Shown here one piece after another: positions 1 to 33,251 of a stretch of DNA of 64,000 bases. The DNA comes from Brachycybe producta. Lineage: Eukaryota; Arthropoda; Diplopoda; Playtdesmida; Andrognathidae. Numbering within the stretch: the stretch's first letter is position 1; each line of letters opens with the position of its first letter. The stretch lies in NCBI GenBank assembly GCA_036925085.1, contig JAUPFP010000011.1:1758797-1822796 (forward strand), in the 5' to 3' direction. Below the pieces are notes generated by a model, which saw nothing but the letters and a program-made list of their open reading frames with translations, had not been told where the DNA came from and made no database searches. Both the position numbers and the translations under genes were made by a program.

Positions 1-59
1 ATTTTACCAGGAAATAATGATTGATGTAAATAAACTGTAATAATGCATAAAAAGTTGCT

Positions 60-2057: not shown

Positions 2058-2568
2058 TTATTTATTTACAAGTAGTAGTAGGCCAACCACTATTCTGTTG
2101 TCGTATACCAACACCTAAGTTGTCGTTCATTGGTTGCCCTGGATCTGGAAAACGTCACCTGGATTGCAATTTCATCCCTCCTTCAACTGAAAAAAACGCG
2201 GGTTTTTCAAATAAGTTTCTTAAAAAAAGTATTTGAGTAGTCCTACTCTGTTTCTCGGTGCAGTCCATATGTTACCGCCAATCAGAGATTCTGCAGATTT
2301 CCTAGGCAATCTGTAAAATCAGAGATTCTGCAGATTTTCTAGGCAATCTGCAAAACCACCATTTCGCCAGTAAACATGCAAAATTCAGGACGTTTTAGGT
2401 AATTCCTTGAACAAAAAGATTATCAGCATAATAACTAAACCCATTGTAATCTGTAAATTATAATCTTATTTAGAAGTAATGTGCAGAATGCTCATATTAA
2501 ACAGGTAATATGCAAAACCAACAAACAATCAGACAAAGTGAGAATCTGTATATATAAAAATGGATGTT

Positions 2569-2570
<2 letters not shown>
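2058..2570. other. Short gene-free stretch upstream of SETD9 copy A
   Basis: This holds the presumed 5' flank of SETD9. It includes two tandem copies of a 37-bp unit containing AGATTCTGCAGATTT (2281-2354). No promoter motif stands out. The same sequence is present in copy B at about 49240-49754. Confidence 0.6.
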
Positions 2571-2610
<40 letters not shown>

Positions 2611-5002
2611 ATCGCTAAACTCCAAAACCGTTTGACCGATCACCATGAAAATTACCACATATATGTGTTTTTTCATGGAGAAGGTTTTTATACTATCACC
2701 TTTGTTGTAGGTCGCCACCAGATGGCGCTGCAGTATATCAACTTCTATACCTATTAGGGCGAATGTACCTTTACGGCACATTGTTTTAGTTTCAAACATC
2801 CTTTTAGGGCAAATGGTTTTAGTTTCAAACCATCTTTTAGGGCAAATGTACCTTTAGGCCAAATAGTTTTAATTTCAAACAGCCTTTTATGGCAAATCGT
2901 TTTCGGGTAAATGTCCTTTTATGGCAAATAATTTTAGTTTCAAACATCCTTTTAGGCGAATAGTTTGTTTCAAACATCCTTTTGGGGCAAATGTCTCTTT
3001 AGAACAAATGGTTTTAATTTCAAACATCCTTTTAGGGCAAATGGATTTAGGCCAAATGTAGCACTAGGGCAAATGGTTTCAGTTTCAAAGACCTTTTAGG
3101 ACAAGTGTTTTTAGGGCAAATGTCCCTTTAGGGCAAATGTCCCTTTAGGGCAAATGTCCTTTTAGGGCAAATGTCCCTAGAGAACAAATGGTTTGCTTCA
3201 AATATATTTTTAGGGCAAATGGTTTTTGGTCAAATGTCCCTTAAATATTACAAATGCCTTTAGTTTCAAACATTCTTTTAGGGCAAATGGTTTAGGGCAA
3301 ATGTACCTTTAGGGCAAATGGTTTAGGGCAAATGTACCTTTAGGGCAAATGTACCTTTAGGGCAAATGGTTTAGGGCAAATGTACCTTTAGGGCAAATGG
3401 TTTTAGGGCAAATGTCCATTTAGAGTAAATGGTTTTAGTTTCAAACATCCTTTTAGGGCAAATGGTTTTAGGGCAAATGGTTTTAGTTTCAAACATTTTT
3501 AGGGCAAATCATTTTAGAACAAATTTCTCTTTAAGGCAAATGGTTTATTGCAAATGTACCTTTAGAGCAAATGGTTTTAGGGCAAATTTACCTTTAGATC
3601 AAATGGTTTTAGTTTCAAACATTCTTTTACGGCAAATGGTTTTAGTTTCAAACATTTTTTACGGCAAATGGTTTTAGTTTCAAACATTTTTACGGCAAAT
3701 GATTTTAGTTTCAAACATTCTTTTATGGCAAACGGTTTTAGTTTCAAACATTTTTTACAGGAAATGTACCATTAGGTCAAGTATTTTTAGAGCAAATGTA
3801 CTTTTAGGACAATCGGTTTAAGGGCAAGTGTTTTTAAGACCATCTTTTAGGGCAAATGTACCTTTAGGCCAAATAGTTTTAATTTCAAACAACCTTTTAT
3901 GGCAAATGGTTTTAGGGCAAATGTACCTTTATGGCAAACAGTTTTAGTTTCAAACATTCTTTTAGGGCAAATAGTTTGTTTCAAACATCCTTTTGGGGCA
4001 AATGTCTCTTTAGAACAAATGGTTTTAGTTTCAAACCATCTTTTATTGCAAATAGTTTTAATTTCAAACATCTTTTTAGGGCAAATAGTTTTAGGCGAAA
4101 TGTACCACTAGGGCAAATGGTTTCAGTTTCAAAAACCTTTTTAGGACAAGTGTTTTTAGGGCAAATGTCCCTTTAGGGCAAACATCCCTTGAGAACAAAT
4201 GGTTTGTTTCAAACATATTTTTAAGGCAAATGGTTTTTGGTCAAATGTCCCTTAAATATTACAAATGCTTTTAGTTTCAAACATTGTTTTAGGGCAAATG
4301 GTTTAGGGCAATTGGTTTTAAGGCAAATGTCTGTTTAGAGCAAATGGTTTTAGTTTCAAACATCCTTTTAGGGCAAATGGTTTTAGTTTCAAACATCCTT
4401 TTAGGGCAAATGGTTTTAGTTTCAAACATTTTTAGGGCAAGTCATTTTAGAACAAATTTCCCTTTAAGGCAAATGGTTTATTGCAAATGTACCTTTAGAG
4501 CAAATGGTTTTAGGGCAAATTTACCTTTAGATCAAATGGTTTTAGTTTCAAACATTCTTTTACGGCAAATGGTTTTAGTTTCAAACATTCTTTTAAGGCG
4601 AATGGTTTTAGTTTCAAGCATTCTTTTACAGGAAATGTACCTTTAGGTCAAGTATATTTTTAGAGCAAATGTACTTTTAGGACAATTGGTTTAAGGGCAA
4701 GTGTTTTTAAGACAAATGTCTCTAGGGCAAACAGTTTTAGGGCAAATGTCTTAATTGCAAATGGCTGTGGGGCAAGTGGATTTAGGGCAAGTGTCCATTT
4801 AGAGCAAATGTTTGTTTAGGGCAAATAGTTTCAAGGCTTTAGGACAAATGTCTATATACTGGATGTGACATGTTTTCATATCTGTTATCTAGGTATTCAT
4901 AAAAATAAAAGCTGTATGCATAATTCATATTCAAGCAAGAAGAACGGGGTGGCAGGGGTATCTTCATATTTCGCCCCGGGCAACGCCGGGTAACTCAGCT
5001 AG
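2571..5002 (+). mobile_element. Helitron-like non-autonomous element with internal minisatellite, copy A
   Basis: The module starts with a (TA)n tract (2571-2607) and a block of about 150 bp (2608-2760). A long minisatellite of 33-bp and 17-bp related units follows (about 2760-4840). The 3' end has the stem CCCGG / CCGGG (around 4975-4990) followed about 9 nt later by CTAG (4999-5002) and a T. A hairpin just before CTRR-T is the standard 3' end of Helitrons. The same (TA)n plus 150-bp block restarts directly after it at 5004, so two modules lie head to tail. No Rep/helicase coding is present. The 5' end is ambiguous inside the TA tract. Confidence 0.6.
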
Positions 5003-5005
5003 TAA

Positions 5006-5080
<75 letters not shown>

Positions 5081-6018
5081 ATCGCTAAACTCCAAAACTG
5101 TTTGACCGATCACCATGAAAATTACCACGTATATGTATTTTTTCATGGAGAAGGTTTTTATGCTATCCCCTTTGTTGTAGGTCGCCACAAGATGGCGCTG
5201 CAGTATATCAACTTCTATACCTATTAGGGCGAATGTACCTTTATGGCACATTGTTTTAGTTTCAAACATCCTTTTAGGGCAAATGGTTTTAGTTTCAAAC
5301 ATCCTTTTAGGGCAAATGGTTTTAGTTTCAAACCATCTTTTAGGGCAAATGTACCTTTAGGCCAAATAGTTTTAACTTCAAACAGCCTTTTTATGGCAAA
5401 TCGTTTTCGGGTAAATGTCCCTTTACTGCAAATGATTTTAGTTTCAAACATCCTTTTAGGCAAATAGTTTGTTTCAAACATCCTTTTGGGGCAAATGGAT
5501 TTAGGCCAAATGTAGCACTAGGGCAAATGGTTTCAGTTTCAAAGACCTTTTAAGACAAGTGTTTTTAGGGCAAATGTCCCTTTAGGGCAAATGTCCCTAG
5601 AGAACAAATGGTTTGTTTCAAATATATTTTTAGGGCAAATGGTTTTTGGTCAAATGTCCCTTAAATATTACAAATGCTTTTAGTTTCAAACATTCTTTTA
5701 GGGCAAATGGTTTAGGGCAAATGTACCTTTAGGGCAAATGGTTTTAGGGCAAATTTACTTTTAGAGCAAATGGTTTTAGGGCAAATTTACCTTTAGATCA
5801 AATGGTTTTAGTTTCAAACATTCTTTCACGGCAAATGGTTTTAGTTTCAAACATTTTTTACGGCAAATGGTTTTAGTTTCAAACATTCTTTTACGGCAAA
5901 CGGTTTTAGTTTCAAACATTCTTTTACAGGAAATGTACCATTAGGTCAAGTATTTTTAGAGCAAATGTACTTTTAGGACAAATAGTTTTAATTTCAAACA
6001 ACCTTTTATGGCAAATGG
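5003..6018 (+). repeat. Second Helitron-like module, truncated, copy A
   Basis: This repeats the first module: (TA)n (about 5003-5077), the roughly 150-bp conserved block (5078-5226) and a shorter minisatellite ending near 6018. No CTAG hairpin end is present, so it is 3'-truncated. It ends about 200 bp before the first recognisable galactokinase exon, where the missing 5' half of that gene would be expected. Confidence 0.6.
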
Positions 6019-6219
6019 CCTTTGTATAAGAATCCATAGTTATTCATTAAGAAGATATAAATAAACGAAATAATATTAAATTATTAATAATAAAAAACAG
6101 TGTGACACTAAGGTGACGCTCACAAGGTGATAGTGGTGATCCGGGTTGCAACAATCGCCGGTTTTGTTAGAGAACGGTTCTAATGAACGTCAATGGAGTT
6201 AAAACTAATTTTACCAAAG

Positions 6220-8293
6220 TTGCAAACATGCCGTGTGGAATCATGAATCAATTTGTAGCATGAAAACAACAGGAAATGCGCGTCTCATTGATTGCAATTC
6301 AATGAAATCCAAGTTGGTTCTGTTGAACGCTCCGAATATTGTAGTTGTTATAACCAACTCCAACGTGAGGCACCAACTAGCAGGAAGTGAGTACGTGACT
6401 CGAAGGCGACACTGCGAAGCAGCAGCTAAGATATTAAATAAAGATTGCTTGAGAAACGTTACGACTGAAGAAGTGGAAGATATGATTAATAAAAAAATGA
6501 ACCTTCTTGAAACGAAAACACAAATTTAGTATTGGTTTTTTTTGTCCGCAGAAAACAAGGATAAATTTTCCGATGAAGTTTATCGACAGACGTTACGTTA
6601 CGACGGACGGAACGTTGTTAGTGAAATAAAGAGAACTACTCGAGCTGCTGAAGCTCTTCTACAAGGGAATTATGCAAGTTTTGAAAAGCTTATGGTCGAA
6701 AGCCATAATTCACTTCTGTGATTCATTTCCACGTTTCTTGCAAATAATTTTATTGAAATGAATGTGTTTTATTAATTTTCGACTAATGTAGAATCTCAAT
6801 TATTCCGACTAGATAGGACCGGACCTGGTCCGAATTAAAGAAAGTAAGGGATAATCCTGAAAATCGCCTTTTTTACTTTAATTCTCTCCTTCACTGTCTG
6901 GAAGTTAAAAAGACAAAATAATAAACTAAAAAACCATGATAAAAGCCGTCCAAAATACACGGAAGTTCGGATCCGAATAATCGAGATTCTACTTTATTTT
7001 AAAGGTTTTTTAAAATAGTAAAAAAAATATCATACTACGTGGAAAACAGAAAAGTCGCAGAATTGACGTAAAAACAATTCTGAAAAACTGCTGCACAAGC
7101 CTAATGGCTTGCTTTGTTCCCCGGAATTTATACATATAATAAGGAACTTCTTACTATAAAGAGCAACAATGTTCATAGAAAAAAAATTATGTACACGAAG
7201 CCAAATTAACAAACGTAAAAAAATGAGAACCACTGGTAGGGAATTCTCACCTGATTCATATTCATACGATATATCCCTCATGTGAAGTGGTACTAAAACC
7301 CTTGGATGTACCACCTCAAAAGCGAACTTTGTATCCAGTTTAGACGGGAGCTCGCGAACAGCTCTAGAACTATTAGCGAGCTCCCGTGTAAACCGGGTTC
7401 TGTTTCTGTTCACGAACTGTGTGCGAGCTAGTCCGTACGCGGCTTAAACGTTACAGGAACTCACCAACGTAGAAAACCTGTAATTCTTAGGGAATTTGAA
7501 AATTATTTAAAAACTCGGTAAATTCATGGATTTTTCATAAAAAAAGGATAACCTAGAATACTCGTAGAAAATAAAATTCGTCAAATATTTTTTTCTTATT
7601 TTCACTGCTATGTGTGATATAATATTGTTTTTATGATATGTTAACGATTTTATTGCTTACTTCCCTTGACATAATTTATAAATAAACGATCGCTTTGCTT
7701 TTCATATACGTTTTAAAATATTTGTTCTTGTGTATAAGTTCTAAAATACTTTCAAAACACGTTTTAGAAGTACAGTATTTTCTTTCTGGCTGTGTTCGTT
7801 GACTAGAAAATGAAGTCACGTAATTCAAAAATTTAAACACGGTTCTGAGCTGTTTAATTCGACTGAATTTTATTATATTTTCACCATGAGGAAAAAAAAC
7901 CGCACTTTTAAATTTGGGGGTTGAAGGAAACACTGACATAACCTGAAGTCGTTTTTTTTCTTCACAATCTTCCTAGAGATGACTACGAAGTATCGTGTCC
8001 CGAGTTGGACAGTCTCGTAGCCTTGGTTCTCAAGGTGAAAGGTGTATATGGTACTAGAATGACCGGTGGCGGTTTCGGAGGTTGCACTGTTACATTGCTC
8101 GATAGAGAAGCCGTGGACGACACAATTGCAAACATAAAGGTTTTCAATAACTGCCGACCACGGTCACGTCGATTAATTCTAATCACTAATTTGTATTATT
8201 TTTTTATTTCCTATGTAGTTGAAATACATTGGAACTCCAACATTTTACGCTTGCACGGCAAGTAATGGGTCTCAAACTATTCCCCTTCAGTAA
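6220..8293 (+). pseudogene. Galactokinase, 5'-truncated, copy A
   Basis: Four 3' exons of a GALK1-type galactokinase (GHMP kinase; galactose to galactose-1-phosphate, Leloir pathway). They are approximately 6220-6528, 6552-6717, 7977-8139 and 8219-8293. Recognisable family blocks are [50 protein letters not shown] and [13 protein letters not shown] (GHMP motif 3), ending in [13 protein letters not shown] and a stop. The N-terminal half, with the substrate-binding and Gly-Ser-Ser ATP motifs, is missing; a minisatellite occupies that position. A one-base frameshift lies between the CGIMNQFVA block and the following MKTTGNA (about 6262-6268), and the first exon junction does not keep phase. I call it a pseudogene, though the last three exons are clean. 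Confidence 0.8.
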
Positions 8294-10877
8294 TCGTTAG
8301 CTTGCACATGCGATTTAACCACAACGTTCATTGAAAAAAAGTTAAAATTCAGATGCATTTTTAAAAAAAATCTTATCGACAACGTTAAAAAAAGTATTAC
8401 GATAAAATATTAGAAAAAACTACATTCCATTTTATACAGTATTTCACAGAATCAACGCCCCAAATTATTACCAAAGAATAGAGTAATGCAACTAAATCGT
8501 TTAAAATTAAACTTCAGAAACTTTAAATGTTACACATTTAAACCTTTAGTGGATTTATAAACACACATATATCAAAATGTAATGTAATAAAAAAGATCTA
8601 TACAAGTTTGTTAAGAGTTAAACAGTTGATGGAATTTGAAAATTGTTTTGAATTACAAATTTCTGAAGAAAACAATTTTTTTCAAACCTTGTTTTTAAAC
8701 ATATTATTATTTTAAGTCTATGTCAGTTTATTTAAAAACTAGTGGTGTAACCCGTCATAAATGACGAAAGCAAAATTCTAGTTTAATTTGGCAACTAAAA
8801 CTATTTAACTATTTTATTCAAATACTTCATTATAAATGACATTTTGTGTGAATTTGCATTGACCGCTTGCATTTTTTATTTGCACCTTACTATTGTTTGG
8901 GTTCTTGGATCGGGAGAGCGCAACATAAAGTTGACCATGAGAAAAAAAACCGGTTCATTTAAATTTAGATAAATTCCGACGTGCTTAAACGTTTTTGTCC
9001 TTGTTTTTACAGCGTTATACACAGATAGACAAAGTTTAATATATATAAAATATTTGTTAAGACTCAAATTATGAGTATAACGTTTATAGTTTCTGCGCTA
9101 TTATTCAACTTGAAACAACAGTCTGGGCCAAATATACTTTGATAATAAACACGCTCCTTGTTTCTGGGACATAATGTGTATATATTTGATGATTGGGATT
9201 TAGTGTATTAGTGTTTATGTTTTTTAGTTTTATGTTTTTAGTGTTTTAGTATTTATGTGCCGTTAATTTAATTTTATTCTCCTATGATGAAAACTAAGAA
9301 GTTGTTACTTTTAAATCAATGTTACTAAACAGTTTAATATATGATAAAACTTGAAAACTTACGATTGTCGGTCAGGTCCCTTAGGATAGGTCTCCGCCCC
9401 CGCCCCCGGACCCAAATATTTAATTGAATAATTGAATTGTTTAAGGCAAAAAAAATATTAGTTAACCTTCAAAATCTTTTTGGTCTCAAAATTACAAATC
9501 TAGCTCAAATCTTTTTCACAAAACTGGGTTAAGACAGCCAATTCAGGCTTATCAATCCTGGTTGTGGGAACTGACACATCTGTATAAGACGTAATTGTTC
9601 CAAGCTTAAATCCTGTAACATGTATTTTAGGCTTATCTTATTTTTTTTTCACCAAAATGCAATCTAGCTAGTTATCTGCTATCAAAAATTCCTAATTTTT
9701 ATAAAAAAAATAGGCAAGTTTTAAATAAAAAATGTTTGCATTATATATGTTTGTGTATAACATGTTTTTATAGTGTTCTTTTAACACGAAAAAATGTCCC
9801 TTCCATTTCATGTTAAACGGTTTCCGTTGTATTTTATCTATCGATCTTATGTATGTTAAAGTTGCTTACTAAATTCAAACATGCTGCAATTCCATTCTAC
9901 TGTGGATAATGTAAAATTATGATGTTTTATGAACAGTTTATTTTTGAAATCTCGTTATTCTTCATTTAAGGAGCAATACTAATTAGAAATTGAAAGTGTG
10001 TTAGAAACTAGAATGGTAACTGAATCACTTAAAACTTTTTACAGACTAAATTAAAAAATATATATATTGTCTGCTTAAAAGTTTGATCATTTTTAAATTA
10101 GTCATAAAAAGCTTATTTTAAAAAAATATTAACATGAAAATATCCAAACGGGATATTTGTTTCTAAAACACTTTCACGTTTCTCTTGATTTTTTCTTCTG
10201 AAAGACGGAATAACCAGAGTTCATGGGACGTTTACAACTTAAAACCATCTCCAGTACAATGGTGAAATAAGAACAATTTCCACCAAAATAGTGAATTCCA
10301 CTAGTTTACACTTTTCTGAAATCTTTCAAAATACAATTACATGACCACAACAACTTCTGATGCAATACCAAACATTTAATATGACATATTAATAATAATA
10401 AAAGTATGCAAAGAACTATTTGCATATGACACTATATGGTCATCTAAACATATCTAATTAGCACTAATTATTAAAAATTTCACAGCAACACAAGACAATT
10501 AAAATCAGATAATTCTAAAATGAAATTAAAATTATTCTTCATTTCAGAAATGCGAAAATAAAACAAACGTTTCATACCTTTTGGAGTAGTGATCAGTGAT
10601 CAGGAGAAAAAAGGTTCAAATTTTCTGTTAATTACGATATAAAAAGAATCACAATCAATAATAAATGGTAAGTTGTGACGTCGCTATTTAGAATGGCTAC
10701 AAACCATCAGATCTGTCTGGCAACCGGGAGGAACGGAATCAATTGTACAAGGTCTTTCGATCATTTGATTTGGAAAAATGAATGTAGTTTCAAGCATCTG
10801 ACTACTGGAACCATTTATAAAACTAAACAAAAACAATGTATAAATAAAAGCAAGAAAAGTTAAATCTGATAACGTAT
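8294..10877. other. Gene-free stretch between galactokinase and Dscam-A
   Basis: AT-rich, with no supported gene. It contains an inverted Helitron-like terminus near 8740-8766 (ACTAG, then the hairpin CGTCAT-AA-ATGACG) and a palindromic MITE at about 9919-10250. The part near 10878 should hold the Dscam-A 3' UTR. The short reading frame at 10675-10863 has no recognisable features. The duplicate lies at about 55502-58085. Confidence 0.6.
9919..10250. mobile_element. Palindromic MITE family member
   Basis: Imperfect terminal inverted repeats: left GATGTTTTATGAACAG..., right ...CTTAAAACCATC. Inner halves carry the shared blocks 'GAAACTAGAATGGTAACTGA' and 'GAAAGACGGAATAACCAGAG'. Other members or halves lie at about 990-1325, 19060-19325, 27770-27955, 28435-29068 and 40340-40490. 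No coding capacity. Confidence 0.55.
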
Positions 10878-13800
10878 TTACTTTGAATCATGTGGAAAAA
10901 ACGTCTGATTCATCTGCTGCATTTCATTGTTTGGAAATCCTTCGAATCGTGGTGGAGGCAAAGGAGGAGCTATTACATACCAAATAAATTACGAGTTCTA
11001 ACTTCATGAAGGGGACCAAATTTTCTTATGTAGTGTACAAACTGACCAACGCACTGACGACCCAAAGTACTCATCTGTCCATGCAGGTGAATAAGGGGCA
11101 GTGTGGCATAAGGAGTTATGTCACCTGGAGCCGTAAATAATTGAAAAGAAAATTATGGCTACATTTGTATTTAAAAAAAAACTGTACCAACCATGTTTAA
11201 ATGTACTCGAAGGACGACTCATAGTTCCACTCGGCATGTAGTCATAGTCTTCGATAGAGTCTCCTCTTTTCAATTCATAAGCAGCAGCTGACAACCGCTG
11301 AGTTACTATTTAAAATATCGATAATTATTTCTCATTTCCCAAAAAACTCATTTGCAACAAATAAACCTGCACGGTGTCTTGCATCAGACTGTTTTAGCTT
11401 AACACACATACAAGCGACACCCAGAATGGCAAAGAGAATGACAGTAGTGCAAATGATCGGCACAATGAGGTAAAAGTTCAATTGAGCCATAAGACTATCG
11501 ACCTTGTCAAAAGGAGCATCCCCCTGAAGTTCTGGAGATATCGTAGCTATAAGAAAATAACGAAACATACAATGGTGATGAGTCTATCGCAGTTTGACAA
11601 TTCGGTCAACTGCAACTTTGTTTAGGCAACAATAAGAGTAATTACAAAAATTATATTCTTCTATGTACACCTCCAGACATTGTGAGTGTGGCAAAAAGGT
11701 ATTTGGCCACTGATGATCCCGCACTGTTGTGAGCTGTCATCCGCAGACCGTACCACGTTCCAGACTTCAAATTGGGAATGACCAACCTTCTTTGTTCAGG
11801 TTTTACTGAACTAGACACAAGAGTCCACTCGTTTGAACTTTTCGGAGCATATTCTACGACGTAGTAATGGATTGGACAGCCGTTGTTTTTCCAGGTGTTC
11901 AGATACAGGGAGACGGCCGAAGAAGTTTCTTCGATCAAATCAGATTTGCTCGGTGAAATAGGTACTAGAAATACAGACAGTGCGATAATTTTTCGTATTG
12001 CAAACATGGTAAATGTATGAAATTATATGATCTACCAGATCCATTAGTGAACACAGTCAATATTTCAGACAAGTCGCTGACTCCAATGTTGTTCTTGGCC
12101 AACATACTAATTTCGTACTTAGTGCCACAATCCAAACTGTTTAGTTTGTAATTTCTCATTTCGGGTTCAAGTTGAACTTTTTTCAATTCACCATCCTCCT
12201 GCTTTAGTTTTAACGTGTAACCTAAAAAACATTAATCATGACCGAAAATAAATTGCGTAAAAGAAAATGGGTTGTCTTCTTCATTTAGAAACTATAACCT
12301 TCACAAATTTCTCATTGAAATCATCACAAGACTTATCAAAAAATTGTCAAAATGATGTTTAGAATAACAATAAGTAATTGATAGAATAAAAAAAAGTAAC
12401 TGATAAAATAAAAAGAAGTAATTGATAGAATAAAAAAGAAGTAGCTGATAAAATATAAAGAAGTCATTGATGGAATAAAAAAGAAGTAATGCACCGAATA
12501 AAATGAAGCAATTGATAAAATAAAAAAGAAGTAATTGATAGAATAAAAAGTAATTGATCGAATAAAATGAAGTAATTGATGAAATAAAAAACTTTAAAAG
12601 CGATTTCTACCAAAATAACCAACAACAAAACAGAAATGGGCACAAATAAAAAAATTGTTTTTATGTATTAATAGTTCTATTTCAAACCGTTAACAATTTC
12701 TTATAAACAATTTTTGATTAATTACTAAAAATACACTGCAAGCAGCCGGTTGGCGTATGGAAGAGAGATCTTAAGATCCAAGTGCTGCAAGATTTATTGT
12801 CAATATATAATAACTACAAAAAATATTATGTGCCACTCTTTCCATTTCGTCATGCCGTTGTTTTTACAAAAAAAACAACAACCACTTTATCACTTGATAA
12901 ATACAATCCAGAACTGCAACCGATAGTTATTGTTAGATTTAGCTAAAATTTAGACCATAGAATCCATGCCTAGATAACAATAACAACTCAGCAAAGTAGA
13001 AAGCATTGTTAGCAAAATGAAGAATGTTACCTTTGACTTTTATCAACTTGCTTTTAGGAGCCTTCCACTGAACTTCGATGCTGTTTGGAGTGACGGTTAT
13101 AAGCTCCAAGACGACCACAGAAGGAGGAGCTGAAAAATATGCAGTCCATAAAAAATGTAATACCAATGCAAGAAAAGAAAATATTATGATGTGTGTCGGT
13201 TGTGTATCACTTATTTCTGCATTTTGCTTTCCCTCTTCCCTCAATTACTCAGGCATCGAAAGCATGCATGAATAACATAGTCGAAAAGTGAGACTATTTG
13301 TGCTTGGTGAATTTGAATTTTGTGCTTGGTGAATTTTAATTTTGACGTCACGTTTTAATATTTTCTTTTTAAGCAATGACCTTAGCAATAGATGGTTTTC
13401 CACTTACATAGAACAATTACAGTATATGTGATTTTGTCTTCACCACCATCGTTCTTAACAAGGCAAGTGTAATTGCCTGAATTCTCTTCTTTTATGTCTT
13501 TTATGGCCAAAGTTCCATCAGATAAAATCACAACATTTTCGTTGCTTACTATGTCACTTTCTCTAAAGGAAAACCAAAAAAACACTAATTGACTAACATA
13601 TAGCAAGTATAAATCCATAGCTATTGTAGAGTACAAATTATAATAAAAGTGGATTACACAAAAGTTAATCTGCACCCCTTTTTCCATACTTATAAAAGGA
13701 CAAGTCACATTATCAAAAATTTCAGATATTTTGATAAGTTTTCAAACAATCATGCTTTTATTTTCCCAATCCTGGCTATTAAAATTATTACCTAAATTGC

Positions 13801-16800
13801 CACTTCCTCTGTGGATGTGGATTCCCAATTGCTACACAAGAAAGTTGAATGTCGGACTTCCAAATAGCGATAACTTCTTCGCCAAAAGAAACAATTTTTG
13901 CAGCAACTAGCAACAATTAATATAAAATACCGATTACTTGTTGTTAAGTACTGATTTCAATCTGATTTTTACTTTTAGGACCAGTCGGTGTTTGCACTAC
14001 CGATTTCGAAGCTTGACCCTCTCCTGCTAAAGTGGACCCGGTCACCCAAAATTCATACCGTTGGCCCTTTTCTAATCTCATGATTTCATGGTGTGTTAAA
14101 GACGAAGTCACTTTGATCGTTGATACATCCTGTCATTGAAACAACAGAAATAAACTTGTGAATAATAAACATAATGCTTACGACAAAATAAATCGCCTTA
14201 AACCTCTTGTTTGTTCAGGGTTCTATAATACAAAGAATATGACTTAAGAACACCATTCGGATGTTCAGGTGATTTCCAGGATACAGTGATAGAGCTCTCG
14301 GAAGTTGCGACTACCTTTATATCCAAAGGTTGACTGGGAACTTTAAAAAACAAAATAATTAGAAAATTGTTGAAAACAATTTTAAAGAGATTCTCATCAA
14401 TCAATACCATCATCGAGTGTTTTACAGAAAACAGGAGTGCTTCGCGGTCCGTCACCGGCTTTAGTCGATGCCTGGATTTCGATACTGTAGTTAGTAAACT
14501 TTCCCAAATTTACCAAAGTCATCGAGGTTATTGACGTAACATTGATACTTTCAGGAAAGTCATCTATTAAAATATGACCCAAAATACGTGAATGAAATAA
14601 ATAGTTTCACAATGCATCACACCACGAGTAAACAGCATGGTGCACCTTACCCACCAAACCATTCGGTCGTTGGTTTGTACGCCACTTTGAAACCTCTGAG
14701 TATTCCATTTATAGAATCAGAATGAGGCACTAACCATGTTAAGTGGATAGTCTGAGATGTAAGTGTGGTGCAGTGGACATCGAACGGAGCTAAAGTAGGG
14801 GCTAATAATGGGTTTGAAATTTATTAAACACCTCTGAAAATGCAACTAAAGATATAAATTAGTGTTGGGACGAATTTCTTTACAAATAGTAATTACATTA
14901 GCGAAAAATAATTATAGTTGCAATTACTAACTACTTTCTAATTACACAACAGGTGACAGAAAAAATGTTGCATCATCATATACAAAAACATAAAAAAAAT
15001 TACTGAACTTAATTTAGAAAGTGATGCTCTTTATCCGGTTTCACACGGTCCGGGTTTTGCCCGTCCGGGTGTGATTGCGCGGATGGGCAGCACCCGGATG
15101 CTGTCCTCACATGATAACGAATATGTATCCAAGTGTACTCTGGGTCCGGAGCTTTCCTGGAGAAATCAGACACAACAAATTTGTTGTGCTTGCAACACGA
15201 GAGCACTCGTACATGTGAACTTGTGAAGGCATGCATAAAACACTTGTCCGTTTGAGTGCAGTTTGTAGCAGGGCGATCTGAGTGTTTTCTATCCCCGGAC
15301 CGAGATATGCCCGGGTCCGGATGGTGGGAAAAACAACATGCCATCCCAGGTATATTGAGACGTTTTGGGCCCACCGCTTTCTTTTATTTTTAGCGCTATT
15401 TCGTTTTGGGTTTTTAAACTTGTTCTTCAACCTGTAATCTTGTTGTAGCTTCTGGGCCACTCGGTACTTTTGGGTACGGAGTGACCCAGACTCTATTTTT
15501 GTACTTGACCTTTTAATTTACACCTCACGTAACTTCTACATAAGTGAGTTTTATGTGATTTTAATTGTTTTGTTTTCGTTTTCTTCTCTTATCACTTAAG
15601 TGTGATAAGAGATGATGAGTCATGGTTTTGGCCAGATAGACCAATCCACTGATTGGTCTATTTGGGCCCAAAATTTATTGTAACCAATCAGAATTTTGTG
15701 CCCTGAGAATCCGACTTGTGGAGTCTCAGGGTATATAAAAAGTGATATTTTTCTGTTTGGAACCGATTTCTAAAATACCGAACCTATGCCCGATTTTGGC
15801 TAGGTTCTTTGTATTATTATTTTTAAGTTATAGTTTTATGTGTTGTGTTCTTAAACCAAGTTATCATTTTCATTTATTTGTTCATATTTGAAATAAATTC
15901 CTATTTCGCTATTTAACTTCAACAGTGGTGGTGGTTTTATTTACTTTAAACTTAAATTCCGCGATTGTGAAAACTCATCATTTCGTTGGAGCTCTTCACC
16001 CATTTGGATACTTCGAATCCTCAAACAGGTCAAGCCTGCAACACCCACTTGTAAGTATATTCACACTATTTTCAGGGGCAAATTTACGGACGAAAGTCCG
16101 CGAGATACAGAGACAAAAGATACTCAAGACTGTGAAAATCTTTAGCCAGAGACTAGTGACGACATTAAATAGACGTTATATTGGTCTAGTCCACCCGGGC
16201 CGGTAGAATTAGTGACCTAGCCACTCACTATTAATACGAGCGTAAACTCGCTCGTATCATTTAAAAGAGCAGATTCTACCTGGGAAAAAAGGTTCGTCAC
16301 AATATCTATTTGTCTGGGTAATAGACAAAAAACTCGGACAGGCAAAACCTTGACCGTGTGAAACCAGCCTAACACGCATCAGTCTATCTGACATTTATCA
16401 GGAGTAGTTAATGAAAGTTGAGTGGTTTGGAGAACACAAATTGTTTAAATACAAACAGAAAAGTAATTTAGAAATTAGAAAGTAATTGTATATTGCATTA
16501 GAAAAAGTAATTAATTACAACTACAAATTACTCATTCATTGAAGTAGTAATTGAATTACAGTAAAACATTCCTTTTGGCAAATTACGTCCCAACACTGAA
16601 ACAAATTAATAATTACCTCCTTCTGAGGTCATGACAACAATAGGTTCTGTCTGTGGTCCTTTACCCTTGCTATTGTATGCGAGTACCACAATGGAATACT
16701 TAGTAAATTGTTTTAAACCACCTATTTGCACGTAGAGGTCATTCGCCTTTGGTTCGGCAGTCATAAGTGTCTTAAAGAGGTAACGGTCACCGCTGTCTGT

Positions 16801-19800
16801 TTCTTTGTAACCAATGTAATAGCCTTGAATTTTGCCATTCCACAATTTATCTTCTGGTGCCTTTTGTATGAACAGTTATACTCTTAGAGTTTTACTTCAA
16901 AACTACTAAAAGTGCCTAACTAAACAAACCTTCCAATGTACTTTAAATGTCTCAACATTGACTGGTTCAACCTCAACGTGTAAAGGAGTTCCTGACGGAA
17001 CTACAATCATAAGTGAAGCAGTTGTTTATATTTCAGCTACCGGTACCGAATTATCAATTGATAATGATCAATTCTCACCATCTTCATCAGTAGTGACATG
17101 AATGCTCTGACTGGCTGAGCTACGTCCTTGAGAGTTCTCAGAAAATACACGAAACATGTAATTGGTTGCTGGTTGAAGTGGGCTAATAATGCTATTTGTT
17201 GGTTCTCCATTCACAGTTTCCATCATAATCGATTCCTGCCATGAATCTACAAAAAAAGCTTCAGTGAGAAATGTTGTCTTGCAACACCAATATACTATTT
17301 AAATTACCAGATTCCAACTTGTATTGAATAATGTATTTCTTAATAGCATCATTTCCATCGTACGAAGCCTTCCAAGTTAATTCAATTGTTCGGCTCCCAA
17401 TTATTGTTGCCTTCAACTCTTGTGGCAAGTTTGGAGGCTCTTTATTAAAAAAAAAATATGAAATGCAAATACAATATAACCAACACGAAACCTCCATGCA
17501 CAATCTATGACAACCAAATATTTTTTTATTATGGTGGGTATTCATCTCGGCCAATGAGGACAGTTGTATGTGAAGGATAACTATTAGGAGCGTATATATA
17601 GTTGCCCATTGAAACTTGTGACGCCAGAGGAGTTGACAACAAATTTAGGATTGTGTCATTTCGTCTGCACAAAAGGTTCTCAAGAGTTTAAACATGTCTA
17701 AATTTTGTGTCAATCCCTCTGATTTCAAAAACTTCATCTTATTTTGAGGCAACTATAATAGTGACGGTGCCAGCGTTTTAAGTCATGACCAATTCATTAG
17801 TCACCACCCCAGTTACCATAACTGCAACGGTGCCATTGAAAATGAATGCCTTTGTTGCAATGGTAGAAGTGATGTAGGAGCCTCGGAGGCTAGTTGTTTC
17901 TACCAACATCATAGCCATCCAAAGCATATTAAAGAAGAAAGAGCTAGTACTGATACTTATTTGTGGTCCTTATTTCCAAATGTATTTAGACTATGGAATT
18001 CTATTCCAGCACAAAGTTCTGTTTCAGGATGAATTCATGCTATTTGACGACAATGCCTAGACCTTGTCTAAATAACAAACACTTATGATTGGGAAATCCC
18101 ACCCCCCCCCCCCCGGCCACATAGCTCTCGAGCTGATTGCATGTGTGCTGGGTTGAATTGAATTGAACATCTTTAGAATACACAAGTGACTAGACTACAC
18201 AAAATGGTGACAACATCTCTGCACTGAAACATGCAAGCTACCCATTAACAGATGACATTTCGTTTCTTACGTCTATTTTATCCTGCACATCATTTTCAGC
18301 TGCTACCGGGAACAAATGTCGTTTCCCCCACAAGTGAAGGGAACTTTATAGTTTCGAGTTTGCCGGCACTAGGCGCCTGTGACCAAATTAACATACTTAA
18401 AACACATAAACTCAAAGTTTTGCTGCTTCCACCTTCAACCCTTCTTGTCAATCCATGTGGAATTGGTGGAAATGGAGCACATATTTTATTACTTTCACTG
18501 CTCTATTATTACCCTTCAGTTTACATTCACCCTCATGTTCTATGCTAACCATATGCATTACACTTGCTCCTGATTCCTCAGTCACACGAAACACAATAAT
18601 CTGGATTTAAAAAAAAAACTATACATACCAACAACTTTCAGTATGCCAAAAGATCTGTTCGTCCCGTATGAATTCTCTGCAACACATTCATAACTTGCAC
18701 TGTCTTCTCGATAAACTTTCTGAATTGTCAACAGTGACACAGTCTCAGACACTGAGTTTCTTAATTCTAATTTCAATCTGAAATGTAAGAGCATACAAAG
18801 CCACTTAAAAAATTGAGCAAAAATAAGAACTTTTAATACCATACCTCGACTGTCCCGTTTGTATCAATTTCCCATCTCTGTAAAAGCTTATCTTTATAGG
18901 AGAATCTCCTTGAACGACACAGTGCAATTGAGCTTCTTTTCCAATTAAAACGATTTGCTCCGAAAGACCAATCACAAAAACAGGGGGTGCTAAAACAATA
19001 TATATTTTGTTTATTGTTGGTCCGTTAGGATAGGTTTTTTAATATATTTAAATTAGATTAAGATGGTTTATAAACAGCTGATTATCGAAGTCTGATTATT
19101 CTGTCTTTCATTTAAGGGTATTTTCGTGAAGATATCTGTTTAAAGTTATGACGTTTTCAAACTAATATTAAAAAGCTTATTTTGAAATATATCAACATGA
19201 AAATACCCTTAATGATTGAGCTACCATTCTAGTTTATAAAACACATTCGAGTTTCTCTTTATTTTGCACCTGAAAGATAAAATAATCAGAGTTTGAGAAT
19301 CGTTTACACTTCATAACCACCTTAAGACATAAATCGTAAGACATAAAATCTTTTTTCTACACGAAGTAAAGTCCATGCACAATTTTCCAAATTCTATTTG
19401 AGAAATTAATTTGTAGAATCCTTTTTCAAAACCGAAAAACTAATTCATATCAATGTGTGGCCAAGTTTCCCAAACTCACATTTTTTCTTGATAATAAACT
19501 TATAACGAATACCGTGCAAACATAAATTCGTGAATATCCTAATTCATATTACAGTATTATAAATGGTTTTCATTGTATCTAAATATTTACAAAATAATCA
19601 CCTTGTAATTTTATCTGTACTTGTTTGCTTAAACCGTTACCAATACCGTTAGAAGCTTCGCAATAGTAATATCCTTCATCGCCCACATTTGTGCTTGCAA
19701 TAAATAAAGACCCATTAGGAAACAACTGCATTCCAGATGTGCTACTCAACGGAGTGAATTTCTGATTTGGTAATACCCCTTCAAATAACAAATAAACCTC

Positions 19801-22800
19801 AGTTTAAAAACGCAGCTCTAATAATAGTTTATAACAAAATTACCAGAAACTCTCATCCAAGACACCACTGGTTGTGGAAATCCTCGAACATTACAGTGAA
19901 GGTTCACATTATTTCCTTTCAATACTGAAATATCTTCAGGTTCATCAATCCATTGTGGTGGAACTACATTAAAAATCGAAAATAATGAATTAATGCAGAA
20001 TTATTTAATTCATAATAAAAGTAAAAGTGTTAATAGGATAACCAAACATATTAATTACTAAATCTGAACTAAATCCCAACTAAATACAAAATCTCACATC
20101 ATGAGTTAAATGCATCAGTTACACTGGAACTCCAGCTGTGAATGTGCATCAAATAACAATAGCTGTGCACATTTGTTGATGCATTTAATCACAGTATTAT
20201 CCCTGCTTTGCAGTCAAATTAATTGTATTCAACACAAATAAAATCAAAGTGACATAAGTAATTTGCTTGAAGAAACTACCATACATGTATTTTTCATAAC
20301 TTCATGAAGTAAAATGATATCAATGCAGTGCTTTTTATATTCACAAATAGTTACTTATGAAATTTTAGTGGAAGAAAATTGCATCTTTTGCATCAACACT
20401 TTTAGTCGTGTGAAGCCACAGTTAATGAGATTGAATAACAATATTAGCACAATTGCCATACAGTCGATTACTTCATTTAATTTTGTTTAGAACATAGAAA
20501 ATTATTAAAGTTAAGATAGAAAGGGTCATATTCTTAACGGGTTTTAAGTCAAAGATAGTGCTAAACTTTTCAATGAAACTGGCTATCAAAAGTTCATGCA
20601 TATATCACTATCTTTAACTTAGCAATCATTAAGAATTCTACCCTAAAAATTGTATCCTTAAGTTAGCAATCATTCAGAATACGACGCTTAATCTTAATAA
20701 ATAATGTTAATATTTTATTTTAAATTATTTATTTCCAATCTGGTTTAGATTTGTATGGCTTATTAAGTAATCAGAACGATTAAGCTAGAACACTTTGTGC
20801 AATAGAAAATAAGTGAAAACATAATGCACAGTTAAAGAACAAATTTCTGACATTAAATAAAAATAAATTCAAGTATCAAATAAAATATAAAAAATGCAAG
20901 ACAAACAATTTTATAGTACTTCATATAACGTTAGTATAATGTAGAACGTAATAACACTTAGTATTTTATACATTTACTCGTATTTCAATTCATGAAGTTA
21001 TTTAAATAGAATTATATTGCAAAAAACATGCCAAATGAACAACAACAAAACATTATAACCTCACATCGGGTAGAGCAATTACCATTGACAATCAGCTGGG
21101 CTGAGTGTCTGGCCGCTCCTGCCCCATTACTTGCAACACAAGTGTAAACTCCATTGTGTTCGGGGGTAACACTGGTAATGGACAAAATACTCGAGTGTTC
21201 ATCGAATGACTTGAAATGAACACCTAAAGACTGCGGTGAGATTTCAACGCCATCTTTCTCCCAAAAGAGTTGCAATGGCAAATCTCCACGGCTCACAATG
21301 CAAGACACTCTGGCCAGCTGACCTTCGATTAAGTGCTCGTCTTGGAATGAGAACGGCACCACTTTGGGGGGAACTGAAACACAAGAGAATAACATGGTTC
21401 AAGAGGAAATCCCTACCATTAACAATCAGAACTGCCATGTGGCTTGCAGAAGCAGCCTGGTTCTTGGCCACACAACTATAGTTGCCACCGTGTTCGACTT
21501 TAACTTGGTCGATAGTCAGTATGCTTGTGTAAGTGTCAACGTTTCGAACTTGGATGCCCATAGATGGAAAGGTGGAGGAAATGGGATTGTGATCTTTTAC
21601 CCAGCTGATGGTCAAGGGTAGGTCACCCTGATAAACCACGCAAGTGAGGCGTGCCAGTGCTCCCTCGAACACATGTTCTCCTTGAAACGAGAAGGGCACG
21701 ATCTTCGGCGCTACTGGAACATGCAAACATGATCACTTAGAATTACCATTAACTCTCAAAATGGCGTCGTGCCGGTCGATGCCCGCCCTATTCTTGGCGA
21801 TGCAAGTGTAGGTGCCGGCATGATCGGCTGTGAGGCTCTCAAAAGAGAGAATGCTCGACATGCCATCCACCTCATGGACCGAGATGGTAGAATCGCCACC
21901 GAATAAAGGGACACCATCCCGAAGCCATGAGAACTGGATTGGGGCGTCTCCTTCTTGCAAGCCACACATCACTCTAGCTGCAGACCCTTCATATTGAATT
22001 GCCCCAAATTGGAAAGGAACTATCTTTGGACCGACTGCAATAAAACGATTAAACAAAATAACCCAGATGTAAATGATTACCGCGAACAAGAAGTTCGGCA
22101 GTCCAAGTAGTAATCCCCGCCCGATTGCTAACAACACAACTGTAGTTGCCAGAATGCTGAGAGCTCACATTATCAATGCTCAGAGACTCAGTTTGTTCGT
22201 CATATTTGCGACTTGCCACTCCAAACTCAGACGAGTGGAGCACAAAGCCATCCTTCAGCCACTTAAAAGTGACTGGCAAATCGCCCTGACTGATCGCACA
22301 TGTGACGTGAGCTCGCATTCCTTTGTAAAACTGGTCATCAAGAAACGCAAACGGGATAATCTTTGGAGGAACTGAAAAATAAGTAAAAACATAAAGCACT
22401 TGTTTTACCGTTGACAGACAATTCCGCTGTGTGCATCACTGTGGCCGCCCTGTTAGAGGCCACACAGGTGTATTTGCCGTTGTGGCTGGGGGTTATGCTG
22501 TTAATTGTTAGAATGCTGGAATATTCATCCAGAACACGCACCAGAACCCCCAGCGTTGGAGAGAGGGGTATTCCATCCTTAAGCCAAGAAACTGTTATGG
22601 GTAATTCCCCATCACTAACAACACATTGCAGTCTGGCTCTCATCCCCTCTCGTAAGAGTTCATCTTGAAACTCAAATGGAACAATTTTGGGAGCAACTGC
22701 AATGCAATTGAAAACAGTTGCTCACTTTGGAATTGACAATCAAGACAAATAAAACAAAAATAATGAATTCAAATGACTTCAACTAAGTGTGCTCTCATTG

Positions 22801-25800
22801 AGAAAATTGCAAATATACTCATATAATGGTTTCAGATAATGAAACAATTTAAGTGTGAATTTTGCAGGCATCCGATTTCTATTTATAATAATCAGGGCTG
22901 GGAATTTTATGTTTTTACATATTTCATTTGCAACTGTCAATCTTGATCACAGTTTTCAATGTATGATAGTATTGATCAATGTAAACCATTATTTAAATTT
23001 TAAACCACATATTTTAACCAGAAAGACATATTTTAGAGTAAATTAGATATTTTGTCACTGTTTTCCATATATACTGTATAGCATTTTTTATTTTTCTCCA
23101 CATTTTTTTAAAAATTTAATTTGAGTTTAATTTAGAGATTTGGACAACAGATGACAGTAGACTGAATAACAGCTCAATGCACATGTTTATGAAAATCAGT
23201 AACTGAGTTTTATATTTTCATTTGCCATTTTGTGTCCGTTACAACATATCAACCATATAAAATAGATGAACACAATAGCACAGGGCTATACATTAATTTC
23301 ATGGCATATTTTGTACAGCAGCAGTTATGTAATAGTGTTTAGAATAGCTTACAGACTAGACATAAGCTTACAGTACTGTTTTGGGAAAATGTGGCCATGA
23401 TTTATGAAAAAAATACATCCATAAAAACAATTTAGGATGCTGTATGAAATAAAAATTCTGTACTTTTAGAAATAAATTTAATAAATATATCAGTTTTTAG
23501 CACATATTTTATCACTTTTTAGTACATCAACATAATTTTTCATAGATATTAGCATTTAAAATTCCTAGCCCTGATAATAATTGTGGTTACTTTTAGTGCA
23601 CTTACTGTTTCCTGATTAGGAGAAAGGACTGCAATAGAGACGTTAATGCTTTTCTAGTTAAATTTATAAAATAGGAAGTTATAGAAAAGTGTGATTTAAT
23701 ACTGAAGTACTTTCATATATTGTATATCCTTCGAAATAATTACTGCACACTTTCAAAAACTTTTAGCAATAATTTATAATACTGGTAATGCAAAAAAAAA
23801 ACGTTTGAAAATGCACTGTTTTGCCCCACTAAGCGGTAGCAGAATTAGGTGCTTTATTTCTGCAGTGAAAAACAAATGAATTTCATACAAAACAGAACTG
23901 ATTCCTTATTTTAAACATTTGGCCAATGTAGGTTGCCTGAATCACAACCAACATTGAATGTTGACCTGCTTCGGCCATTAGGCTTTTGTCGAGATTCAAA
24001 AACTTGCTGAGCCAAGCCAAGACATACTTATAATGTTAAAATAAATTGAAATGCTACTTCATTAACAGTTAAACCGATATTTTTTTAAAACTGATTATGT
24101 TTAATGCTTAAAAATATTCTTTTCATACTTTTCAATGTTCTTCCATAATAAATTTTATAACATGTATTCTTCAACTGAACTTTATTGCCTACCCTTAACT
24201 ATGTAAATGAAAGTAATTTTATACTTGTGCATTGATCTATCTTGGAGTAATTATTGCATTAAAGAATGATTCAGATAATTTTTTTTTCTTTGAAATCTCA
24301 GCATACATCATGAAAATTGCAACCTTGATAGGATGAGAGGAATCTCCTGATTAAGTAATAACAACACTTTGCATATGGCAGCAACAGTTCTTAAGAAAAC
24401 ACCCAACCACATTTTTCTCATGTGGGAAAAACTTCTCCTAACTAGAAATTAGATTTCTAAGTGCAGCAGCCAATTTAGGAATTACACCCACCACCCATTC
24501 TGTGTGTCCCTGTGGTTACCATGCTTAAACAATGAGAGCTCACTGAATTCAACAAGAAAAACAACACTATAAAGAAAATCAGTAGTTTTACCCATTATAG
24601 TGACATTCACTTTAGCATCGACTTCTTGTCCGTTATCACTTTTTGCAATGCATTTGTATGTACCAGAATCAGTTTTACGATCAACATTTTCAGCAGTAAG
24701 TGTTCCATTTGGGAAATAGTTGAGTCTCCGACTTGATCGCAGTGGTTTATTGTCTTAAAATAATTTAGTTATAATTACATGTTTCATATTGTTATCATTA
24801 CACCCACATAAAACAGACCTTTTTCCCAAACAATGGATGAAATAGGATAGCCATAAACAGGACAGTTCAAAAGCAACGTATGACCAGAAACTGCTAAAGT
24901 ATCGGAAACAATGCGGCTCCCAAGATTTCCTAAAAGAAATTACTTAATTTTAACTGAAGTACATAATATAATATAAAAAAAACAGCGCACCATAAACATT
25001 GACTCTTGCAGAATGAACCAAACGCCCTGAAGAACTAGACGCAACACAACTGTAGACACCACCATCCTCTACGACAGTCGTAATGAACTTTAAAGTAGTC
25101 ACTGCTTTTCCATTATGATCTACAGCAGATGTAACGAGCACCTTTGAACTATTATACAATGACATTCCATCGATAGTCCAAGAAATAGTAGGAAGAGGAA
25201 TTCCAGTTGCAATACACACGAGAATAACTGAACTGCTTGGTTGAACAACCATCTCATCAAACACTTCAAGAAACTGAGGAGAGATTTCTAAAAACAATCA
25301 AAACAAACATTCCGATATTAGAAAAGCAGATTAACAAAAAGTAAAATATTTTTTTTAAAAAAAAAGAACATTGAGACAAACCAGAAAGCATAAGCTCTGA
25401 AGTAGACTGCATCACATAACCAGACTCATTCTTAACGAAACACTGATACATTCCACGATCGGACATCGTGACACTTTCAATAACTAGACTGTTGTCAGAA
25501 AAATCCTTTATTGGAACTCCGTTGTGCAACCAAGTCAAAAAAGAAATCTTTCCTGTTGCAATGCACTCGAAAACAACTCTCTCGTTGAGTTTAGTTCTTC
25601 TAACAGAAGGTGCAACATTCACCGACAATGGTTCTATTTATTTTATGTAAAATAAATATACTGTAGAAGTCAATTAAACATCCCAATCACAAAAGCATTC
25701 GTTTACCAGTAGTGGTTAGCTTAATATCCAATACATCCTTTCCCAAATCGCTGACAGCTTCACACGTGTAAACTCCCTTATCCAAAGCAACACTGCTTCC

Positions 25801-28800
25801 AATGACCATCGCACTGTCAGTTTTCACAAATCGACCATCGAAAGTGATTTCAGTCATTTCATTGCCTGAATTCTTTTTGTACCACCTATAAAGAAAAGCA
25901 TAAATAACATTTGGGCACTTTACACCCAGTTAAGAGGGTAATATTACTAGTGGAGATTCAAGCAAAAAAATTGGAAGTCAACTTCGGATTGCCTAATGAA
26001 ATAATTTCTCAATGCACTTTCATTTGAAACTAGAAAAGCGAAGGTTCCACAATAACAGTTTAAAAAAAACTTTTTGTGGAAGTTTGAAAATTTGTAATAA
26101 AACCCGCATGGCATGTCTTTTTGATCTAGTTCAATTCCAACAATGATCATATATTAACAAAGGCCATCGATCATCGATTATAACCACTTTTTTGCAGTTT
26201 ACTTTACTGCACAACAACCTCACAGACTACATTTTGCAGTCGAAATCAACCACTCAAATTGGTTTGTGTGAATAGAGCCTCAATGTGCGAAAACAACTGA
26301 ACAGGAAAGAAATGAAAAATCTAGAAGAATTTTTCCTGACTTTTTATTACTATCTTCTGCTTTTTCAGCATGTGGGGCCCAGGTCTTACTGAGTATGCTA
26401 AAAGTATTTTTTTTTCTCTAAAGATATGTTTAAAAATTAATGTGTTTGCTAGAGAAATTTGAAAATCATTTTCAACTAATAGTTCTTCTTCTTCCCCTGG
26501 ACCACGACCCGCGCCCAGCGAAGTTGGTTAAATGATGATGATGAATGATGATAGAAGCGACATACGAATCGGATTTGGTAAAATGTGTTTCACGACTGGC
26601 TACCCTGCCTGACGCCAACTCCGCGATGATGAAGAAAACTATGAAAGACAAACAAGACCCATGCCTCAGCCGGGATTCAAACCCGAGACCCCTAACACCA
26701 CAAGCGGAAGCTATCTCTACAGTGCAACCGAGGCGCCATCTTTCTACTAATACTTGATGATGCCAACAATATTAAAATTTCACAAATGTTCAAACTTCTA
26801 ATCAGCAAAATAATTTTAGACTTTTCACCAACTATTTTAATTACAACCAAATTTAAAAAAAGGCGTTCTACTTCTTTATATATACATGTAGAAATTACTA
26901 CTGATATAATTAAAAAAATTACTGACCTAATAGTTGGCAATGGATTTCCTTGAGTTGCACATGGAAGAACAACAGATTGCCCAACAACAACAGAAACAGA
27001 TTTTCCACTTTCTATTATCTTTGGTGCAATCAAACCACGAGATTCTGCAACAATTACAATAAGTACGATAAACGACATTTACAATTCCATTAAGATGTTC
27101 AAGAGGAACACTTGAGTGACTTGACATTGTATTAGAAACTAGAAAAGCAGCTGAATAACTTAATTATACATTTATTCGTTAATATACTGTGAAAACCCTT
27201 TTACACGACAACGGATAACACAAAAAAATAACAAGAAATATATTTTGGCCCCTTCACTCAGTATAGGGTTTTCCATATATTTTGAATTGTTAAGACCAAC
27301 CTAATAACACGATTATATCCGTTAACAGAGAAATGGTTTGAGCCAATGAATAAAAATCTATTCAAAATCATTTTAAAAACGAAAAAAAAAGACTTCAGAT
27401 TCCATACACTAAAACACAAACCTCTGGAATTACTTCTCAAATTTGCCTTTTATCACAATTATAAATACATATTGTTGCATACACTGTATTATATGTAAAA
27501 AAGGCAATTAAAAATTATGTATTTTTAAATAAAAAAAAAAGTAGACAAGAGCCATAATGCAAGTTTTAAGTTTAAAAAAATTCACATTTTTTGTCTTATT
27601 TGTATTCATGAACGTTTTAAAAATAATTTCTTTTAACACGAAATTCGGTTCACAAGAAATAAATTTTTCTGATGCCTTCAATTTCATGGTAAGCTTTTCC
27701 CACCTTAATAAAAAATAAACTTTTCATACTAACTCTAACTCACTTGCCTACTAAGCATCGTTACCTTATAGTTGGGTTATTTTCAAATTAAATTAAAAAA
27801 ACTTATTTTTAAAAAATATCAACGTTAAAATACTCTTAAGTAACTGAGCTACAATTCTAGTCTCTAAAACACTTTCAAGTTTCTCCCAATTTTGCTTCTG
27901 AAAGACAGAATAACAAGAGCTTGAGACGGGGTCATGAAACTTTAAACCAGCTTAAATGTTAATATCATTTACGTGGCTATTTTACCAGTTACAAATAGCT
28001 GTCCATCGGCCGAACTAATCTGAGTCTCTTCAGTTAAGCGATGGGATGTTTTACATTTGTATCTAGATCCTGATTCTCCTAGCGTGACGTTACGAATGTG
28101 TAATTCTCCAAACGGCATGATGGCAAACTTTCCATTTAAAACTTCCAACAGAAATAGACATGAATGCTAACGACAATTGAAGAGTTTCCTAAGAAATAAA
28201 TAAACCTTCTTCAAAAGATGGACGAATGAGCAAGTTGTCGTTCTTGATCCAAGCAGTGACAGTCACGTAGTCCTTGAGAACGGTCGGAATGTGGCATTTG
28301 AAAACAGCAGTGTTGCCCTCAATGGCATATGAGTCATAGACGAGAACTTCGTGACTCTGGAGAACAACTTTCAAAACAAATGTTAATTAAAGACTCACAC
28401 AGCCATATTCAAAAACGTTATTCGAGTCAAACGCAAACTTAAGACGGTTTGTAAACAGCTGATTTTCGAACCCTGATTATTCAACAAGCTAAATCGAAAG
28501 TGTTTCAGAAACTAGAAAGGTAGCTCAATTACTTAAAGCCTTCTACAGACCAGGCGATAATCGTCGGACACAGCACCATTTATTTGGATGCCCGTGGCCA
28601 ATGATGTTGCAATTTCAAATCGAATTCAGTAAATGTGGTTCAGTTCAGCAATGAATTTGTCGACCACCGGTGATGTTAGTGCTGTATTTGTATACCGATT
28701 GAGCGATGTTTTCCATTTGAAGTGAAAAACAGAGAAACAAGCAACACTCTTTGTTGTCAAGCGGTTGTATATTCATGCAATGTTGCAATTCGATCCGCAA

Positions 28801-29587: not shown

Positions 29588-29725
29588 TCTGATTGCAACC
29601 TAAAATTATAACAAAAGCAATGTATAATGATTTCAAGTGACAGTTAGCAAACCACGCTTGATTCTTGACAAACAAGAGCAAACAGACTTTGCAATTTGCA
29701 AACAATGAGCAATTGAGAAGCACAA

Positions 29726-33240: not shown

Positions 33241-33251
33241 TCACTCATCTC

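Follow-up and report, generated by a model that had tools for sequence, protein, structure and literature searches.

We report that the stretch of Brachycybe producta DNA analysed here (64,000 nucleotides, C11:1758797-1822796, hereafter the window; the assembly comprises 295.3 Mb in 442 contigs) holds a Dscam gene, B, that is a mosaic, its 3' half like that of its neighbour C and its 5' half like that of its neighbour A. The mosaic, its exchange interval, a duplicated 47.2-kb unit and a set of open exon cores are all seen in the assembly, and B probably arose by unequal crossing-over between A and C. The original prediction had described a sharp identity switch between two Dscam paralogues. 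The switch is real, but a third gene, A, which lies outside the window, was needed for the comparison.

Joining 200 kb of flanking sequence to the window gave a 260-kb stretch with an N count of zero, and self-comparison of this stretch revealed three Dscam copies: A on the left, B in the window and C on the right. All three genes are on the minus strand, in the order A-B-C, and the putative parents A and C therefore flank B in the same orientation. The window shows two of the three genes: A is found 47,193 bp leftward of copy B, and the 5' exons of gene C extend beyond the window to C11:1835.2 kb. A and C are older tandem relatives; in a block listing that took in syntenic-offset rows, they align at 68-94% identity over about 58.4-93.2 kb of the joined stretch.

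Gene B encodes, in order, a signal peptide, Ig1-Ig6, five Ig7-type exons, Ig8-9, Fn1-4, Ig10, Fn5-6, a transmembrane segment (TM) and a tail. This is the canonical arthropod Dscam layout: 10 Ig domains, the last of them placed between Fn4 and Fn5, 6 Fn3 domains and one TM; the domain names were assigned by order and by eye, and Pfam confirms only some of them. The best PDB match of the Ig1 exon is the Dscam structure 3dmk (E 2.3e-40), which we take to be Drosophila Dscam1. Fn6 of A matches PF25059 (FN3_DSCAM-DSCAML_C, E 2.1e-29), and Fn6 of B is 98% identical to it. Both the Dscam-type Ig1 and the C-terminal Fn3 of a canonical arthropod Dscam are thus recognizable by sequence. We modelled 32 exon cores, with the first Fn2 exon and the tail exons outside the model, and none of the 32 cores of B contains a stop codon. 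All 32 are also present without a stop in C, where the signal peptide has a 3-residue gap and Fn4a is covered over 40 of its 41 residues. By the precedent described for a centipede (PMC4244043), the Ig7-type exons of B would be spliced in a mutually exclusive manner. The features are collected in the following table.

Table. Features of the Dscam locus, in window coordinates (position 1 is the first nucleotide of the window).
Feature	Position	Strand	Basis
Left-hand unit u1, right end; holds the C-type 3' half of B	1..14800	.	self-comparison
Right-hand unit u2: A-type 5' half of B, spacer, C-type 3' half of C	14801..62009	.	u1/u2 comparison
Hybrid Dscam gene B	10690..29590	-	exon cores, Pfam PF25059, PDB 3dmk
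Gene B, tail exons	about 10.7-11.3 kb (approximate)	-	exon cores
Gene B, TM core	11389-11511	-	exon core
Gene B, Fn3a exon	14651..14801	-	splice-site scan on A, shifted 47,193 bp; reading frame
Exchange interval of gene B (138 bp shared without difference by all three genes)	14674..14811	.	three-way alignment
Same 138-bp tract in gene C	61882..62019	.	three-way alignment, tract list
1,001-bp dispersed repeat of A and B, in the Fn2b-Fn3a intron	15351..16351	.	genome matches; uninterrupted site in C
Gene B, five tandem Ig7-type exons	21087..22691	-	exon cores
Ig7-type core v5	21087-21368	-	exon core
Ig7-type core v4	21421-21708	-	exon core
Ig7-type core v3	21751-22029	-	exon core
Ig7-type core v2	22085-22366	-	exon core
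Ig7-type core v1	22413-22691	-	exon core
Gene B, Ig1-Ig6 cores	24602-29451	-	exon cores
Gene B, signal peptide core	29540-29587	-	exon core
Gene C, 3' half, as far as Fn1a	57900..64000 (3' limit approximate)	-	exon cores
Gene C, TM core	from 58597	-	exon core
Gene C, Fn3a core	from 61873	-	exon core
Gene C, Fn1a core	from 63494	-	exon core

When window 1-14.8 kb is compared with 47.19-62.0 kb, the two segments differ by 7 substitutions and 3 indels in all, in agreement with the original expectation of a handful of differing sites left of about 14.81 kb. Between 2.75 and 14.75 kb all 250-bp bins are identical save for one substitution (7501-7750) and a 6-bp gap (5001-5250), the remaining differences lying at 1.0-2.75 kb. 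From 14751 rightwards the identity between B and C falls at once to 95.2, 89.7 and 85.9%, an abrupt drop that bears out the predicted sharp switch. It comes back up to 93.2-99.6% at 16.25-17.25 kb and disappears beyond about 17.5 kb. A gradual decay of identity is excluded by the 250-bp bins.

Adding gene A resolves the switch into a change of partner. From 6.1 kb to the switch, B and C are 100% identical in all 250-bp bins with a single exception of 99.6%, while A shows differences in each bin to which it aligns, its identity nowhere exceeding 98.4%. To the right of the switch, as far as the end of the comparison at 19.1 kb, A and B are 100% identical in each bin, and C differs or fails to align. 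No bin throughout joins A and C against B. Counted by alignment column, 1,633 sites join B with C, 3,932 join A with B, 1 joins A with C and 11 differ in all three genes, with the proviso that gaps are counted per column and that many of the A=B columns sit where C barely aligns; the single A=C column and the 11 all-different ones are confined to two alignment edges. The last site at which B and C agree against A is 14673, inside the Fn3a exon, and the first at which A and B agree against C is 14812, 11 bp into the intron. The interval between them, identical in all three genes, consists of 128 bp of the Fn3a exon and 10 bp of intron, given the predicted exon ends (AG/GT signals and an open frame, with a second donor 4 bp off scoring slightly lower). 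The switch had been placed in the intron, and B and C do first differ there; against A, however, the exchange interval is mostly Fn3a exon. A single identity switch at the junction of the tandem unit, with the 5' part belonging to one parent and the 3' part to the other, marks B as a hybrid gene in the assembly.

In the 250-bp bins nearest the switch A and C are about 3-14% apart, and the 138-bp tract ranks third among the A/C identical tracts of the aligned stretch, after tracts of 254 and 190 bp. Earlier figures were about 1.6% divergence for Fn2 and 5-6% for Fn1; between A (here equal to B) and C, the exon cores differ by 1.8% in Fn2b, 6.5% in Fn1b and 11.7% in Fn1a.

The unit on either side of the junction is 47.2 kb long. 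Its left-hand copy, u1, occupies C11:1726404-1773596, all but its right end lying left of the window, and the right-hand copy, u2, runs from C11:1773597 to about 1820805; the exact ends of u2 float within the 138-bp tract. Over 47.2 kb the two copies differ by 12 substitutions (0.025%) and 4 indels (of 4, 7, 20 and 6 bases), a fifth gap in the list being an overhang of the longer query and left out of the count. A genome search with a 1.8-kb probe (window 14801-16617) returned a second 100% match at C11:1726404-1728220, 47,193 bp leftward, followed by a match of 83% to a dispersed repeat inside that stretch, and brought up no near-identical third copy. Half of the 12 substitutions fall within about 1.1 kb, a tightness reached in none of 20,000 random placements. 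Together with the 7-bp indel they are clustered at window 48310-49402 (window 1121-2220 in u1), possibly as a conversion or haplotype patch. The insect mutation rate is about 3e-9 per site and generation, which would place the duplication on the order of tens of thousands of generations ago.

These features can be accommodated in a simple sequence of events. The same-strand neighbours A and C would have mispaired, and a crossover would have taken place inside the 138-bp tract that is identical in both and covers most of the Fn3a exon. The resulting chromosome would have gained one 47.2-kb unit, composed of the 5' half of A, the spacer and the 3' half of C, and a third gene would have arisen at the unit junction, combining the upstream region, signal peptide, Ig1-9 and Fn1-2 of A with the Fn3-6, Ig10, TM, tail and 3' flank of C. 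The exons of such a hybrid stay open because A and C share their exon layout, and B is presumably expressed like A. Two observations fit this scheme less well. The cluster of six substitutions and a 7-bp indel is not what one simple duplication followed by random mutation would produce, and the longer A/C identical tracts of 254 and 190 bp were bypassed, showing that tract length alone does not set the exchange site. That the duplication itself is real, whether produced by crossing-over or by repair, we regard as likely.

Misassembly had been named as the main alternative. Under it, only A and C would exist, and two haplotypes of the A 5' half, spacer and C 3' half would have been falsely joined in tandem. 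The two units are indeed as nearly identical as misjoined haplotypes of low heterozygosity would be, the join falls where A and C share an identical tract, and the cluster of substitutions might represent a haplotype patch. However, this tract is just 138 bp long and A and C are several percent apart on either side of it, so that accurate long reads should not falsely overlap there; the lack of any N in 260 kb and the reach of contig C1, which has a match past 21.8 Mb, suggest that the assembly was built from long reads. Furthermore, none of the 4 indels between the units is a single-base one, and the differences are unlike sequencing error, nor did the 1.8-kb probe, which represents only that part of the unit, detect a further near-identical copy. 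These observations lower the likelihood of a false join, which we consider unlikely, if still worth keeping in mind, and we infer that the assembly is correct here.

The same duplication may also have been formed by replication-based repair involving template switching. The end product would be the same, and a precedent is provided by the replication-based formation of segmental duplications outlined for yeast (PMC2518615). Nevertheless, crossing-over straightforwardly predicts a junction that lies in an identical tract and is clean, in register and free of further rearrangement; the point is not decisive, and we favour homologous crossing-over, with repair being distinctly improbable. Of the two processes originally proposed to end at the switch, unequal crossing-over agrees with the mosaic and the duplicated unit, whereas conversion alone, by which a long tract would have brought the 3' half of C or the 5' half of A into an older, separate gene B, is ruled out by the near identity of the entire 47.2-kb unit, spacer included, and is scarcely credible given that B agrees with A to one side of the switch and with C to the other and retains no sequence private to itself, an outcome that one tract cannot yield, even if the uneven, 3'-reduced synonymous divergence of A and C makes older conversion plausible.

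That divergence was analysed over 31 exon cores (1,801 codons, signal peptide left out). Between A and C, dS is 0.166 and dN 0.028 in the 5' half (dN/dS 0.17), and dS is 0.071 and dN 0.013 in the 3' half (dN/dS 0.18). Synonymous divergence in the 3' half is thus about half that in the 5' half (Fisher P 7e-5), and it is heterogeneous across exons (chi-square 117.8, 30 df, a value matched in none of 20,000 simulations; per-exon synonymous sites were approximated from codon counts). Older conversion patches between A and C are a plausible source of this pattern. Both halves display constraint and no sign of diversifying selection.

The original prediction had also likened the outcome to a constant C-terminal half joined to variable N-terminal halves, and this did not hold up. 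In all 22 compared 5' cores, from the signal peptide to Fn2b, the B protein equals the A protein, and hence no new N-terminal variant was made. It is the other half that differs: of the 10 cores that run from Fn3a through TM, TM alone is equal in the two proteins, and about 14 nonsynonymous changes over 480 3' codons distinguish B from A (as taken from the comparison of A with C, to which B is equal there). For this trio, a constant/variable gene system is excluded by the A-B identity and the dN/dS values.

Several repeats and reading frames surround the genes. The 1,001-bp dispersed repeat is absent from C, which has an uninterrupted site, and the large intron gap between B and C is due to its presence in A and B. 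At least 57 further matches to it, at 70-92% identity, were found among 40 scored of 1,348 candidates, some of them being pieces of one copy; inspection of the ends of the insertion by eye revealed neither inverted ends nor a target-site duplication. Downstream of B, a plus-strand frame at 7942-8265 matches GHMP kinases in their C-terminal part (PF08544, E 5e-8) and is presumably galactokinase-like; homologous DNA is also present beside gene A. Two regions downstream of B and C, at window 2549-6018 and about 49.7-53.2 kb, hold minisatellite-like arrays; to the left of gene A there is related sequence, in inverted orientation. Two minus-strand frames without a Pfam match (34528-35400 and 35787-36077) look, by eye, like mobile-element parts. 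Outside the window, identical 899-bp direct repeats at C11:1886562-1887460 and 1891312-1892210, 4,750 bp apart, are what one would expect from a young element with long terminal repeats.

The trio belongs to a large family. At E 0.001 or better, the genome contains at least 42 Ig1-type and at least 41 Fn6-type matches, the weakest of which may be other Ig or Fn3 proteins. Several tandem groups of these matches are located on C11 and C37, and this abundance provides ample substrate for unequal exchange. One cluster, at C11:0.29-0.43 Mb, has 10 Ig1 and 9 Fn6 matches. Its Fn6 matches fall into two sets by protein identity to A, five on the left at 90-92% and four on the right at 95-97%, and its Ig1 matches are at 80-85% throughout. 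On C37, three equal-score Fn6 matches are spaced 11.4 and 11.5 kb apart. The step in Fn6 identity, the flat Ig1 identity and the equal-score Fn6 matches are hints that exchange may be recurrent in Dscam clusters, often joining an N-terminal half to the stalk-and-tail half of another gene, an idea that we hold to be speculative and rather doubtful. If the pattern does recur, germline recombination would shuffle entire ectodomain halves between dozens of Dscam genes. Within the same C11 cluster, two equal-score Ig1 matches (386690 and 391073) lie 4.4 kb apart and are followed by one Fn6 match at 402226, which has an internal stop, an arrangement that suggests a partial gene duplicate.

Collectively, the birth of B by unequal crossing-over seems to be an ordinary gene-family event caught unusually fresh. 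It would represent a clean, very young case of Dscam repertoire growth by whole-gene duplication, with the crossover mapped to 138 bp, and the duplication would serve as a marker for copy-number variation in the species. Among the open-licence papers listed for Dscam in connection with unequal crossing, gene conversion or myriapods, none was seen to describe such an event.

A close known parallel is the centipede Strigamia maritima, in which Dscam has many whole-gene paralogues and 40 genes have an Ig7 exon duplicated two to five times (PMC4244043). The Ig1-type matches and the five Ig7-type exons of gene B point to a similar expansion; the account of the centipede genes, however, describes gene and exon duplication and, in the parts dealing with these, no hybrid with a mapped crossover point (PMC4244043). 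Protocadherin paralogues of Fugu likewise combine 3' regions that are over 99% identical with divergent 5' regions, but there, as reported, it is the 3' part of the variable exons that has been homogenised among several paralogues by conversion (PMC1852091). In the Dscam trio, by contrast, identity covers introns and spacer, a single duplication is involved, and the 5' half of B is that of A. In the chelicerate sDscam genes, which are also Dscam-type adhesion genes with diversity on the N-terminal side, 5' cassettes with their own promoters are described as being spliced onward within one gene (PMC5775551), whereas A, B and C each possess a full 3' half of their own. In mechanism, the proposed origin of B resembles that described for CYP11B1 and CYP11B2, members of a different gene family, where a hybrid gene results from out-of-register crossing-over between similar neighbours (PMC8750845).
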